Of a stretch of DNA of 64,000 bases, positions 3,996 to 53,334 are shown piece by piece. Below the pieces are notes generated by a model. The model searched no databases. It was not told where the DNA came from and saw only the letters and a program-made list of their open reading frames with translations. Origin of the DNA: Deltaproteobacteria bacterium CG11_big_fil_rev_8_21_14_0_20_47_16 (GTDB taxonomy: Bacteria > UBA10199 > GCA-002796325 > 1-14-0-20-47-16); contig PCXA01000001.1 of NCBI GenBank assembly GCA_002796325.1, forward strand, positions 1 through 64,000, read 5' to 3'. How positions within the stretch are numbered: the first letter of the stretch is position 1; each line of letters begins with the position of its first letter. The position numbers and the translations under genes were made by a program.

Positions 3996-6900
3996 TCATT
4001 CTTCCGTTGGCCACTTTTCCCCAGATTCGAATGAAGGGTGTCGCGGTTCATTTGGGGGCTTCCCGTATTCGACACGCCATCTTTCTATTTGCCCTAAAAG
4101 AGCATAGGCTGATTTCTTCCGTCGGGGGTCATTCAAAAACATCTCAAAAAGTTTTTCCCTCACAACGTTAAAGCTCTGTGAAGAAAGCGTGTGGGTAGAT
4201 CCAGATTGGCCATAAGGCTTTTGTTCGACAAAAACAGTTTCAAGTTTTCGCTTCAATGGATGTGGCACAGATGGGCCGGAAGAGTCATCAATGAGATTTA
4301 AACTCGCAACTACAGATTCCTCTATGTCGAGACGAACAAACACTTCTGATAACAACAATCTTTTGCCTGGGGGTAGTGTGAGACCACACAATTGAATAAG
4401 TCTTTGATAAACACTGAGGTCCTTACGTGCAATGTCCGCAATTCGCGAAGCCAATATATTAGCTCGGCCAAATTTTGGATTGGCTCCGAACATCGCTATC
4501 TCTGGATCAACAAAGCTCATGAGTATTTTTTTCGATTCTGGTGTATCAAGAGTTGCAAGTGCATCTACCCATTGTTCTCCCAAATCCTCTATACATTCCC
4601 CATTTGAACCAGCAAGTTCACGAAGTAGCGGAACGGCATCCTTGCATTGGCTATGACCAATTGCAGTGAGAACCTCCCGTTGCGCATGCCGGGGGAATCT
4701 GAATTCTGAGACAGCTTCTCTGATTTTTTTAATTGCTTCAGAAGGATCATCTACAAATGGAAGAATACAGAGGAAATGTCTTAAAAGTCTTTCACCATCA
4801 TCGTTTGAACCGTGCTTACGAAGATGTTGCAGCGTTACCTCAAACAGCTTGAGTATTGGGTCGGCCGGCAATATTGCTCCTCCATACAGAAGGTTTTCGA
4901 GAGCAGTAATTTTGGACCAATCATCATGTTCTCCTAGCGACGATAACACTTCGAAAATAAGATTTGCGGATCCCTTTGGATCAAGAGCGGCCAATGATTT
5001 CGCTAAATTCTTCACATTGTAGGGTACTGCGACTTTGTCAGATTGGCATTCCCTCAAAAGGCTTAATATTCTCTCACGGATTGCGAATGAAAATTTTATT
5101 CGTCGATCTTCATTAAATTGATTAACATCTTGATCGGCACGCGCTTCCCAGATGTTGGCATACCCATGCTTATAACCACCAAAAGGTGGTTCGGATCTAT
5201 CTTCTTTTGCCAGGCTAATGAGTACCGATGCACTCTCACAATCATAGATTGGTTCACTGATTAAATTTAAAATAATGTTTTCAGCTCCTACGGGATCTAA
5301 TTGAACTAATGCCTTGAGATAATGGCCACACTGGCTCGTTATTGTTACTGGGCGTCCTTCTATCCGAGTCTTTAAAATTTCCTTAAGTCTTTTAAGATCT
5401 GCTTGAAGAAGACGGTCTAGCTCTGCCATGTCTTCCGGCTCTCCAACTCTTCCTAAACAGGAAGCAAGTTCAGCCTTAATGCTTCCTGACGAATCAGGTT
5501 CATTAAGAACAAAAGCGATAGCGCCTTTCAAGTATGCCCGTATTTTTTGACGCAGATCAGGATCCAATGTATCGTGTAAGCTTGGCTCTGATCTTCCCAC
5601 GGAATTAAGAACATCAATGACCACAAGAAATTCAATATTATCAAGCTTGGAGTCAAAGCATTTTGATAAGCCTGATACTGCAATCTTTGGAGGGATCGCT
5701 CTAAACAAATCTTCTAATTGCCTTACAATAGCATGTTCTTTTTTTTGTATTTGGTCAGGAGTAGAAACCTTTAGCCGTTTGAACTCACAGAGTTTTAAAA
5801 AAATGTTTTCGGCAAAAAGTTTATCTGCACCAACAGAAAGTAGTTCGTTAATATGAGTGTGGTGCTGGTATTCAAGATCTTCGCTTGAGAGCTTCTGGAA
5901 CCAATCGGTCATAGTCTTTTCGGGTATAGCCGTTATAAATGCACTCCAATGATTGAACCATAACGAACCATCTGCGACGCGCTCTGCAACCCAGTGACTA
6001 ACCCACTGCGGATCTGTTTTTTTAATAATATCCAATGCAGGTTTTATTACAAACTCACCAATATCTTTCATCTTGGTACGATCAAGGTTTTCAAGTTCAG
6101 TTTTCAGCCCATCCACAATACCTGTCTCCCCAAGTTTGGCTTGATTTAATAGGGCTCGCAAACGAGGCAATGTGTCAGTCGATTCAGAGTAGATTTTTTT
6201 GTAACCATTGAGGACTCGAGATCGCACTACAGATGGAATTTCTTCTGGAGACATCTGTTTGATGGCCTGATCAAATGTTTGTTGGTCCATCCTTTCCAAT
6301 ACACTACCAACGTCCTCGCGAGATCCAACCCAACTTAACCATTCCATCCCTGCAACCCGCACCTTCATGCTGGGGTCTTTCAGTATAAATTCCTCTACGA
6401 TCTCTGCCATCCAACGATGCTGTGTTACTTCTCGAACGAAATCAATTCGGGCTTCTTCTTTCCATCCTTGAAGCACACTCTTCCAATCAGGCCCTAGCGT
6501 AGACAGATGAAATTCATTCAACTCTCGGTATGTGCTGAGGCGAACTTGGTGGTCATTGCTTGTAAGAAGGGGGAGGATAATGTCTAAAAAATCGGGTGAT
6601 CCGCTGGCCATCATACCAGCCAAGGCACATTCCCGATGATCTACATTTTTTGATTTGTACCATGCGCGAAGACAATCAGACAATGCAGGTCCAATATTCT
6701 GCCAAACAGTTGGCCCACAAAGGCGAGCCAAATTTGCAGCGAAGATCGGATCAACGCTTAAAGCCATCTTAACAAGCAATACACCTGCTTCAATTAAAAC
6801 CTCTTCGTCGGACCTTTTGGCACACTGAACGCCAATTTCTTCAGCCAGCATTTGAAGAGGTTCTGTCCAAACCGGTTCATTCACATATTTTTTCGTAAAT

Positions 6901-49084: not shown

Positions 49085-51019
49085 TTAATTTAACGGGAAC
49101 CGGAAGAGAGGTGTCTTATCGTATACACCATCGCTAATCTCTTCAAAGACCTGTTCAAAGTCGTCGATAGCCAATGGACGGTTGAAACGGCTCGGGTCCA
49201 ACACAACCCCTGCTTGATGGAGCTTAGATTGCAGGGACTGCCACTTGGGATTAAAGGACACCTGTGTCAGCAATACACCCAAAGCCATACCAACGCGCCG
49301 CTCATCCACATCTTTCGACAAAAGTAGTTTTTGCATGGTTGAAGCAAGTTGTTCAAAAAACGCCTTGTCCAAGTTTTTCGCAGTAGCATAGCGACTACTG
49401 AGCTGTGCCCAGGTTGCAGTGCTTAAGTCCATATATGGTGGAACCAAAAAGTTGCGCTGGGTCAGCGGTTTGCTCAAAACTGTTTCACGAACACCTTCTT
49501 CACCTTGCTGCGCAGCCTTTTGTAGGGCCCGATCCGCTTCATTCACCGCAACATCTTCACCATCAAACGGACTAAAGAATTGGTTAATGAAACCAATCAA
49601 CCCCATGAATATCAACTGCGCACCAAAGATGGCGCGGGCACTATTTCCTTTAGCACACAGGTAGAGGTAATGATCAAACAGAGCAATTGACGTTACATTG
49701 CGAACATTGGTCATGGCCATCGATTCTGAAATATTCGAATTTTCAAATGGCGAAAGGGATGCAATCGCCTGGGTCCCATTACGATAGACCGTAGCAAATA
49801 TTGCATAGAGTGCGTACGTCCGAAAGCTGGGCATGTAATGGGGTGCAAGCACTTGACTGACTTGTTTACCCAGTAACCACTGGGCACCATGCCAGAGCTG
49901 TGCCACCGCCCAGTTGCCATAATCAGATGCGTGAACGGCCTGTGAAAAACGCGCTGTTCCCCATTTCATCCACCATTCGCGAAAGCCAATACGACCAATG
50001 CCTTCAAGCGAAAACCGGCCAATAGTAATCCGCGGTACATTGCTCAAAATACCCACGAGTGGATAAAAGAAGGTGCTTGTGAATCCGAAAAATCCGGCGG
50101 TGCGTGTGGCACGATCAATATCCACACTTGCCAAATCCACATCGTTTGCTGTCATTTGATGTTCAAAAAAGGCCAAATTTCCAAGTGCTGACATAGCATG
50201 AATTGCACCAAACGATGGAAGCTGAGCAAGGAACTTTGTAACAAACTCTGGACCCAACTTGGCAGCCAAGGGTCCGCCCACAAAACGACTTGCTAGTGCA
50301 ATTGCCATCGTACCCGTTGTCGTTTCAGCAGCCATCACTTGATGCGCACCCAGAATCGTTCGAGCGGCTACAGCTTCTCCAAAGAGGGGCTCATAAACAT
50401 AATCATACAGAATCGGACCATGGTCTTTGCTTCCCGTTGCCATGCGACGGCCGATTTCGGCGGAGGTTAATACCGTTGAGGCATAAATATACCAACGGTA
50501 CAGCGTACCTGCTCCTTGCACCCAAGGATTTTGACCCACTTGCGTGGCAACGTCTTTAGCTCTAGCCGCTGCATCACGCGCAGCTTTCAACAATTCACGC
50601 CACTTGGGATCTTGACCGGGTGGTGGTGGCTCACCTGCACCACCATCAATGCGTCTTAACGGAGCAGTTACAGGTTGTGTTGGCAGCACAGATGGCGCTT
50701 CAATATGCACAATCGGCGGCGCCCAAGGCTGAATCGCACCAATATCCAAATCCAAACCACCGGCTTCGGTGATGGGGAGTGGCGGTGTATCCGTATCATA
50801 ACGCCACATGGTCGGTGCACGACCAATCACGGGTGCCATGATCCACGGCAGGGCTTTGACGGCCATTTCGGCCGTTGCTGCGCTGGCAGTTTCGGCAAGC
50901 GTGCCCAAACCTTCTGCCAGCCCTTTACGCCTGGCAATCGCGACCGCAGCAGCACCGGTACCTGCGGCACCAGCGGCTATCAGTTCATACGCACCAATTG
51001 CAATTAGTGGGGCTACCAT
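49085..51019 (-). CDS. Large unknown protein downstream of an S-box riboswitch
   Basis: I use ATG 51019 (MVAPLIAIGAYELIAAG), 644 residues; GTG 51052 in the same frame would add 11. The N-terminal 80 residues are Ala/Gly-rich and hydrophobic. A Pro-rich stretch (about residues 105-140) follows, then a long region with several weak membrane-like segments (for example AIFGAQLIFMGLIGFINQFF) and a charged C-terminal domain. No known domain recognised. Its only strong context is the SAM-I riboswitch, which would tie expression to SAM or methionine status. Confidence 0.6.
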   Translation of the reverse strand: MVAPLIAIGAYELIAAGAAGTGAAAVAIARRKGLAEGLGTLAETASAATAEMAVKALPWIMAPVIGRAPTMWRYDTDTPPLPITEAGGLDLDIGAIQPWAPPIVHIEAPSVLPTQPVTAPLRRIDGGAGEPPPPGQDPKWRELLKAARDAAARAKDVATQVGQNPWVQGAGTLYRWYIYASTVLTSAEIGRRMATGSKDHGPILYDYVYEPLFGEAVAARTILGAHQVMAAETTTGTMAIALASRFVGGPLAAKLGPEFVTKFLAQLPSFGAIHAMSALGNLAFFEHQMTANDVDLASVDIDRATRTAGFFGFTSTFFYPLVGILSNVPRITIGRFSLEGIGRIGFREWWMKWGTARFSQAVHASDYGNWAVAQLWHGAQWLLGKQVSQVLAPHYMPSFRTYALYAIFATVYRNGTQAIASLSPFENSNISESMAMTNVRNVTSIALFDHYLYLCAKGNSARAIFGAQLIFMGLIGFINQFFSPFDGEDVAVNEADRALQKAAQQGEEGVRETVLSKPLTQRNFLVPPYMDLSTATWAQLSSRYATAKNLDKAFFEQLASTMQKLLLSKDVDERRVGMALGVLLTQVSFNPKWQSLQSKLHQAGVVLDPSRFNRPLAIDDFEQVFEEISDGVYDKTPLFRFPLN

Positions 51020-51128
51020 TCCTAAAAATACTCCGCCGTTATACGACAGCACATTTCCAGAAACGACGACACACCGCCCATAGTAATTGGGTTGGTTCTT
51101 TCAGTTAAATAGTTTGGGAATAACGACC

Positions 51129-51270
51129 GCACTATATCTGCCCTGGCATTTCAGCCAGGCGGGAATTAGCACCTACACGATGTGTGTCGCGAGGTTGCTG
51201 TAGTTTTCGGGCCCGTCCCTAGAGCGCCACCCTTGTCGGGATGCGCTCAGCTACTCTGGATAATTGCACT
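51129..51270 (-). promoter_or_regulatory. SAM-I (S-box) riboswitch, variant with extra hairpin
   Basis: Read on the minus strand, all S-box parts are present. P1 pairs 51258-51270 with 51129-51138. The 5' side has TTATCCAGAGTAGCTGAG. P2a GTAG/CTAC encloses GGGACGGGCCCGAAAA. CAGCAACC, P3 (ACAC/GTGT) and the core GGTGCTAATTCC follow, then P4 (CCTGGC/GCCAGG). The pseudoknot is also kept: loop CGGG of P2 pairs with CCCG after the core. A 27-base hairpin (51222-51248, stem GAGCGC/GCGCTC) replaces the short strand of the usual K-turn. It should bind S-adenosylmethionine. Confidence 0.88.
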
Positions 51271-51345: not shown

Positions 51346-53334
51346 CTAATATTTGGTGTTACCTAAAAAGATGCCCTTAAGGGCGGTGCAGTCAGCCCCA
51401 TCACTTTCATACAGAAGGTTGTAGGGATCAAAAAGTGGGTGGCCGGGGCAAACAGGCTTGTTACTATTTTGGTCAAATTTGGCACCAACCCAGGTAAATG
51501 AGTTACAGCTCTGCAGATCGTAAGCCATATTTTGTTGAGCACACGTATTATTATCTAGAAAATCTACAGATCCTGGAGAATATAGCCATCCAATAAGACC
51601 GCCTTTAACCACACCGGACTTTGGCTCTGCAGTCAAATCAAAGCCCAACCAATTCGGAGTGTCGATTGATGGCCCGCTTATTTTTGTCTTTGGCTTTTTA
51701 CTAAATGGGTATTGATCAAACACAAAGTAGCCCTGAAAGGGCACTTTCTTCGATTCTTTTAAGATATAGGCGTAATCAATCGTGTCATTTTTGACAGTTG
51801 CGTTCATTGAATAGAGATTTCCGATTGGATCCGATGACCTTGGAAGACTCACTTTAAGTGTGTGCGCACCACCCGACTCGCTATTTCCAACTGATACCAT
51901 ACATACTGCTGTATCTTTAGGCCCAAATTTTACAGCTGAAAATGGGGCTGGTAGCGCTTTTACGGGATCTAAGATCAGGTCTAGGCATGGATTAAAATAA
52001 CTGTGCACAACAATTCCATTGGCCAAATGAATATCTATTTGAATACCCTTAACATGGAGTGGGCTTGTTCCAGAAACTTCCAGCCGGACATATCTAAATT
52101 TATCTAAATCATCATTACCCAGCTGATTAAATTCCCCAAATGGATATTCACCGTAATTATTCATCATTGTTCCAGATGCAACATAGTGAAATGAATTTTC
52201 ATAATCATCAAACGAACCTGGCTTGTCTGAAAACACAAAGCTCACTTTATTGTTGTACTGTCCATTGGGCGGATTTGGTGGAAGATCGGTATGAAGTCTC
52301 ACAATAACAGAACCTACTTGGCTCTTGCCACAAACCTTGGCTGAGCTTCCCACAATAACATTAATGCCTTTACCTAAAAGCTTGCCCACCTGACTTGCAT
52401 CAACATTATTACAACGCAAATTTATGTTAAATCCAAACTCCTTCTGTTTAACAATGTTGGGATTATCAATAAGCGGCGTAATATCAGTAATATAATTGCT
52501 CTCGAGCAATATATTCTTTAGACTCTTTAGCGTTTTGAGTGGTGATAAATCCGAAATGTGGTTCGCATTCAGCGCCAACCCCTCGAGTTGACTTAATTGT
52601 CCCAGCTCATCGATAGAAACAATACGATTTCTGGACAGATTTAATGTTTTCAAATTCGGGAAACAGTGTAACCCAGCCAAATTGACAATTCCCATATCCG
52701 ATGCATTTAAAACTTTAAGGCCAAGAGCCTCTTGCACTGTAATCCCTTTATTAGGATCTTTTTTTAAACTCTTTAAAACCGCTTCACGTAAATCCTTATC
52801 GATAAACACTTGTCCCACATCGCCATCTTGAACACATTGATCCGGCAATTTATCTATTACTTCGCCTGCCTTGTCTGGGGTCTTTGAACCACCAAAGGGA
52901 TTTCCCATCCCGCTAAACATTTGCTGCATGGCTCCCGCTGCAGAACTCATTGCAGAATTCATCGAGCTAATCGCTGCTGCTACACTGTTTGCTGCAGCGG
53001 CCATTGAGTTTGAAGTTTCAGAGATTGCCGCTGCTGCTGATGCTCCCACTTCTTGAAATATGGCCTGACAATCATCAGTCATTGGTAGGCCCGCATTAAC
53101 ATCCTCAGCGCATTTCTTTAGCTTGGCTTCTTGATCCTTGTTACCTTCATCATCTTTACCGTTAGAACCAAGTGTTCCCGAAAAACCGAGATTGCCGGGG
53201 GATTCTGAGCCAGGATTTTTAAAATCGAAGTTCGTCTTAGAGTCATCCTGAACGGCCTGGTCATAATTTCCTTCACTACACGCCACCGCGAATACGGCCA
53301 AGATAACTGCCACTACTGTCATTTTTAGCTTCAT
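51346..53334 (-). CDS. Lipoprotein with internalin-type leucine-rich repeats
   Basis: A 662-residue lipoprotein (lipobox AVAC). A low-complexity Ala/Ser region (about residues 95-150) leads to about five LRR units of 21-22 residues (about residues 190-320): NLKTLNLSRNRIVSIDELGQ, LEGLALNANHISDLSPLKT and similar. The C-terminal half is beta-rich, with no recognised domain. LRRs of this type mediate protein binding on the surface. Upstream, 53335-53570 holds no clear gene, only a hairpin at 53410-53438. Confidence 0.75.
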   Translation of the reverse strand: MKLKMTVVAVILAVFAVACSEGNYDQAVQDDSKTNFDFKNPGSESPGNLGFSGTLGSNGKDDEGNKDQEAKLKKCAEDVNAGLPMTDDCQAIFQEVGASAAAAISETSNSMAAAANSVAAAISSMNSAMSSAAGAMQQMFSGMGNPFGGSKTPDKAGEVIDKLPDQCVQDGDVGQVFIDKDLREAVLKSLKKDPNKGITVQEALGLKVLNASDMGIVNLAGLHCFPNLKTLNLSRNRIVSIDELGQLSQLEGLALNANHISDLSPLKTLKSLKNILLESNYITDITPLIDNPNIVKQKEFGFNINLRCNNVDASQVGKLLGKGINVIVGSSAKVCGKSQVGSVIVRLHTDLPPNPPNGQYNNKVSFVFSDKPGSFDDYENSFHYVASGTMMNNYGEYPFGEFNQLGNDDLDKFRYVRLEVSGTSPLHVKGIQIDIHLANGIVVHSYFNPCLDLILDPVKALPAPFSAVKFGPKDTAVCMVSVGNSESGGAHTLKVSLPRSSDPIGNLYSMNATVKNDTIDYAYILKESKKVPFQGYFVFDQYPFSKKPKTKISGPSIDTPNWLGFDLTAEPKSGVVKGGLIGWLYSPGSVDFLDNNTCAQQNMAYDLQSCNSFTWVGAKFDQNSNKPVCPGHPLFDPYNLLYESDGADCTALKGIFLGNTKY

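Follow-up and report, generated by a model that had tools for sequence, protein, structure and literature searches.

The kink turn (K-turn) in helix P2 of SAM-I, the S-box riboswitch for S-adenosylmethionine (SAM), is a standard model for RNA bending, and the locus described here raises the question what becomes of such a bend when a hairpin is placed inside it. Natural aptamers in which the bend has given way to a junction can test whether k-junctions, i.e. K-turns whose non-bulged strand bears a further helix (PMC10573300; PMC4005666), originate when a hairpin is simply inserted into a K-turn, and whether a junction can do the work of a K-turn. The locus lies within a stretch of 64,000 nucleotides (positions 1 to 64,000 of contig PCXA01000001.1 of Deltaproteobacteria bacterium CG11_big_fil_rev_8_21_14_0_20_47_16), which in its full length is referred to as the window, and an original prediction had recognized an S-box there in which a hairpin took the place of one K-turn strand. 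We found the element where it had been placed, on the minus strand (51266-51132), and, judged by its nucleotide sequence, it probably represents a SAM-I riboswitch aptamer whose P2 K-turn has been made into a three-way junction.

A covariance-model scan of the region (cmscan) matched the element to the full SAM-I model of Rfam (RF00162, positions 1-108 of 108) with 44.4 bits and an E-value of 3.1e-9, with an insertion, 38 nt of the element facing 13 of the model. This score falls exactly on the RF00162 gathering threshold of 44.4 bits, which is presumably why a scan of the whole 64-kb window at that threshold listed no match. In the RF00162 search of the entire genome (1.95 Mb, 99.75% complete), the element was recovered with an E-value of 5.5e-9 and the next match reached 14.8 bits (E 2.1), so that it is the sole credible SAM-I of this genome. 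The SAM-I core is present, in agreement with the original prediction: AGAG, GCAACC, GGUGC and the P1 strands UAUC/GAUA are intact, and the minimum free energy (MFE) fold shows the expected helices P1, P2a, P2b, P3 and P4 together with the inserted hairpin. The conserved strands just named would form the SAM pocket, as reportedly seen in the SAM-I crystal structure of Montange and Batey (2006), and the element is predicted to bind SAM. The pseudoknot between loop L2 and J3/4, likewise predicted, is fully paired (CGGG/CCCG, 4/4), and relatives from the same class carry other words at this place (TTGG/CCAA, ATGG/CCAT, CTGG/CCAG), several of them with merely 2-3 of the 4 positions paired. In the order of the transcript, the features are as follows.

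51132..51266, minus strand: complete SAM-I aptamer (region and whole-genome matches as given above)
51259..51266, minus strand: 5' strand of P1, CAAUUAUC, of which the core UAUC pairs with GAUA 51138-51135 (cmscan alignment)
51251..51254, minus strand: 5' strand of P2a, GUAG, pairing with CUAC 51203-51200 (non-canonical, NC, helix; MFE fold)
51247..51249, minus strand: UGA (3n, 2n, 1n) on the K-turn strand opposite the bulge, kept as in the class relatives
51220..51246, minus strand: 27-nt insertion GCGCAUCCCGACAAGGGUGGCGCUCUA, candidate third (T) helix, with a stem GCGC/GCGC or a 6-bp stem GAGCGC/GCGCUC
51209..51219, minus strand: P2b GGG/CCC with loop ACGGG, including the pseudoknot strand CGGG 51215-51212 (alignment, MFE fold, relatives)
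51199..51208, minus strand: bulged strand and 3' strand of P2a, GAAAACUACA, with 2 nt fewer than its counterpart in 14 class relatives
51169..51198, minus strand: P3 with conserved pocket strands, GCAACC...GGUGC (RF00162 alignment, relatives)
51160..51163, minus strand: pseudoknot strand CCCG in J3/4 (4/4 pairs with CGGG)
51142..51159, minus strand: P4, CCUGGC/GCCAGG (RF00162 alignment, MFE fold)

In K-turn nomenclature, the non-bulged strand reads 3n-2n-1n with the sequence xGA, and the bulged strand has three loop bases and then 1b and 2b (PMC4316175). To locate the insertion in these terms, the element was mapped segment by segment against 14 SAM-I elements found in genomes of its class. 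In each of the 14, AGAG and the GGG of P2b are separated by precisely 7 nt that end in GA, where the window element has 7 (UAGCUGA, aligning with UGACUGA or UGGCUGA of the relatives) plus 27 extra nucleotides, and the insertion point consequently falls between A1n and -1n. Between CCC and GCAACC, the spacing is 12 nt in 14/14 relatives and 10 nt in the window. Read against these relatives, the hairpin is hence a 27-nt insertion directly 3' of a UGA that the non-bulged strand retains, with a loss of 2 nt on the bulged strand; the three-base strand was not replaced by a stem-loop, as had been proposed. A simple P2 K-turn with a three-base bulge and G·A and A·G pairs is not found in the element. 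The stretch CAGCAACC is common to the element and to 14/14 relatives, which suggests a modified member of the class and not a foreign import. With -17.2 kcal/mol, the hairpin (GAGCGC 51248-51243 / GCGCUC 51227-51222) is considerably more stable than its shuffles, for which the value is -7.3 kcal/mol (z -4.8, 0/200 as good).

By its position in the sequence, the insertion occupies the defining place of a k-junction. Such junctions have been proven by crystal structures in thiamine pyrophosphate (TPP) riboswitches and in the DUF-3268 RNA, with the third helix at the same site as the insertion in the window (PMC4005666, PMC10573300). Their T helix stacks on the canonical (C) helix, and in the TPP riboswitch loop bases pair into this stack (PMC4005666; PMC10573300). 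Transferred to the window, P2b GGG/CCC would be the C helix, G 51208 would be L3, A 51207 and A 51206 would be 1b and 2b, and A 51205 would be 3b and face U3n, with A 51247 as 1n, G 51248 as 2n and P2a GUAG/CUAC on the other side. An A·A pair at 1b·1n together with A·G at 2b·2n may be formed in this arrangement and fits the pattern of the Escherichia coli TPP riboswitch; A·A at this place occurs in 16.9% of TPP k-junction sequences, that of E. coli included (PMC4005666). The adenines at 1n and 2b are present in the sequence, with A1n paired in the best secondary structure, and the shortened bulge is what a pairing of loop bases into the stack of C and T helices would allow. We consider it most likely that the K-turn of the element folds as a k-junction, a reading held to be roughly twice as probable as a plain three-way junction. 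The earlier idea that a three-way junction does the bending of the K-turn can be retained in so far as the pairing potential exists at the site and a known motif matches it, and the k-junction would be the fold by which this happens.

In the mechanism that can be imagined, the 27-nt hairpin between A1n and -1n would convert the P2 K-turn into a three-way junction, in which the T helix stacks on P2b and the P2a side retains the K-turn-like pairs A1n·A1b, G2n·A2b and U3n-A3b. The resulting bend would carry loop L2 to J3/4, where CGGG and CCCG pair, and SAM would be held between P1 and P3. By analogy with other S-boxes, the downstream gene would probably be repressed with SAM bound.

Several observations speak against a k-junction in this element. 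The full 6-bp stem consumes G2n and A1n and, on secondary-structure energies, lies with -20.9 kcal/mol about 4.7 kcal/mol below the shorter 4-bp form that leaves them free (-16.2 kcal/mol); the bulged strand has no G1b and is shortened by 2 nt; no homologue that carries the insertion, and could show covariation in the stem, occurs among the 46 genomes of the phylum; and the downstream gene is an orphan without known SAM link. The first of these points leads to an alternative that we regard as unlikely but that fares best among the rivals, namely a SAM-I with a plain three-way junction in P2, in which the 6-bp stem forms in full, no sheared G·A pairs exist, and P2b folds back merely through the flexibility of the linkers CU, UA and GAAAA, with SAM binding persisting in a perhaps weaker form. 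The 6-bp stem is indeed part of both the MFE and the centroid structures, although folding energies leave out the gain from tertiary contacts. Further, junctions do without K-turn bases elsewhere, as a SAM-I of a Clostridia metagenome-assembled genome (MAG; L037) has Watson-Crick pairs instead of G·A beside its hairpin; the window element, on the other hand, has kept its UGA exactly as in the class relatives.

It is more improbable still that the locus is a decaying relic, i.e. an ancestral SAM-I leader that gained the hairpin and lost SAM binding and gene control. One could point to the orphan gene downstream, where SAM-I elements of the class relatives precede cysteine-synthase-like or threonine-synthase-like genes (judged from motifs), to the lowest RF00162 score in the class, to an outer part of P1 that is mismatched in the RF00162 alignment, and to five genomes of the same order without a SAM-I match. 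However, the element retains intact pocket strands along with P2b, P3 and P4, and its pseudoknot has kept the complete pairing that several canonical relatives do not show. An identity as SAM-IV or SAM-I/IV was rejected, with RF00162 as the best match of the SAM clan and both P4 and pseudoknot PK-1 present, and so was a chance origin (RF00162 E 3e-9; hairpin z -4.8).

The question arises whether K-turn hairpins occur in other SAM-I elements. One genome per species (84,980 species) was scanned for SAM-I cores in which 18-48 nt take the place of the normal 7, using a strict pattern (exact TATC, AGAG, GGGA..GGCCC and GCAACC) that makes all counts lower bounds; this yielded 8 loci, each of which was inspected individually, and the same pattern gave no match in viral contigs. 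In Meiothermus, the elements L039 (from M. taiwanensis), L036 (from a MAG) and L055 (from a further genome) have CAGCGGA followed by CAGGGCAACUGCCCGAC and GGG, i.e. by a clean 17-nt hairpin between A1n and -1n, and retain every standard K-turn base (GGA; GAUGA). The elements L039 and L036 score 71.6-73.7 bits against RF00162, and the Meiothermus SAM-I lies directly upstream of a cysC-like gene followed by a phosphoadenosine phosphosulphate (PAPS)-reductase-like gene (assigned from sequence motifs, not by profile search). The genomes of L036 and L039 also contain paralogues (L050 and L051) that have identical flanks and no hairpin, so that this pair is a natural control, with both forms available in the named species M. 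taiwanensis. Folded by itself, the P2 of Meiothermus is rivalled by another fold whose energy is slightly better.

In an Uhrbacteria MAG, the element L034 has a hairpin of 7 bp with a GAAA cap inside the non-bulged strand of P2, which is devoid of standard K-turn bases, and L061 from the same candidate phylum lacks the hairpin and precedes a metK-like gene. The P2 internal loops of both elements (the L034 element lying near 6367-6517, that of L061 near 1501-1620), with GAUG opposite AUGCCAA or a hairpin, are without the standard bases. The Clostridia element L037 mentioned above has a hairpin of 4 bp and likewise precedes a metK-like gene; 0/148 other genomes of its family have a hairpin there. 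With 41-43 bits, L034 and L037 remain under the RF00162 cut-off. In the phylum of the window, the insertion is present in the window element alone among 46 genomes, the sole other pattern match (G038) being a canonical element in which the pattern had started at an AGAG further upstream. L038 was rejected as a canonical element as well. Three Gastranaerophilales loci (L032, L033, L035) were not counted, as their K-turn is normal and the hairpin sits in J1/2 between AGAG and P2a, a further unusual insertion site in SAM-I.

The insertion of a hairpin into the K-turn is thus a rare event that has recurred and is probably recent in each of the lineages. We tentatively propose, with confidence somewhat short of even, that SAM-I K-turns have repeatedly and independently become three-way junctions that keep the fold (in the phylum of the window, Meiothermus, Uhrbacteria and Clostridia), and that those of the window and Meiothermus are true k-junctions, which would be the first of their kind in a SAM riboswitch. 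Searches of the open literature gave no natural SAM-I in which a k-junction occurs. The elements of the window and of Clostridia lie on or under the Rfam cut-off, so that such cases can escape annotation pipelines.

With regard to the output of the switch, two features downstream of the aptamer have to be considered.

49085..51052, minus strand: gene for an orphan protein of up to 655 aa, starting at GTG 51052 or ATG 51019
51017..51065, minus strand: strong hairpin burying the likely start codon ATG 51019 (-22 kcal/mol, z -6.0, 0/200 shuffles as good)

The gene following the riboswitch is not a recognizable sulphur or methionine gene. Its product has no homologue in 45 relatives from the phylum and no match in Pfam, NCBIfam, PHROG or PDB, and its AlphaFold model is uninformative (mean predicted local distance difference test score, pLDDT, of 36); two hydrophobic stretches span residues 1-35 and 471-494. 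The start-codon hairpin is a plausible candidate for the OFF structure. For an alternative pairing under SAM control, the best candidate was no better than chance: an 8-bp antisequestor (GUCGUUAU 51127-51120 / AUAACGGC 51042-51035) is not claimed, as the best duplex between the two regions was matched by 1439/2000 shuffles and the shared word AACGGC by 552/2000. A reading frame of 19 codons (ATG 51081) crosses the start-codon hairpin and ends 2 nt short of ATG 51019, an arrangement that would permit translational coupling. Immediately upstream of the riboswitch (51346-53334, minus strand), a lipoprotein-like protein with leucine-rich repeats (Pfam LRR_4) is encoded.

Overall, SAM-I and k-junctions are both already known, and it is their combination that is a new, rare and recurrent variant. 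Variable insertions at unusual riboswitch positions have been reported in general (PMC2258182), and an engineered swap for a pk-turn demonstrated that the K-turn function is replaceable in SAM-I (PMC4316175). The element shares with SAM-I (RF00162) all helices, the pocket strands, the L2-J3/4 pseudoknot and a full-length model match, and differs from it in the 27-nt K-turn hairpin, the 2-nt shorter bulge, the score at the cut-off and the orphan target gene. SAM-IV (RF00634) and SAM-I/IV (RF01725) have the same SAM clan core; SAM-IV, however, lacks P4 and has a second pseudoknot, and in SAM-I/IV P2 is uninterrupted and PK-1 is missing (PMC6890682), whereas the window element possesses both P4 and PK-1. 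The k-junctions of TPP riboswitches and the DUF-3268 RNA resemble it in the A·A and A·G pairs that are possible at 1b·1n and 2b·2n (as in E. coli TPP), yet they belong to other RNAs, the 3b-3n pair is C-G in TPP and would be A-U in the window element, and the T stem of the latter can extend and consume G2n and A1n. The SAM-I elements of Meiothermus carry a hairpin between the same two K-turn positions and are set apart by a 17-nt insert, standard K-turn bases, a sulphate-assimilation target and an independent origin.
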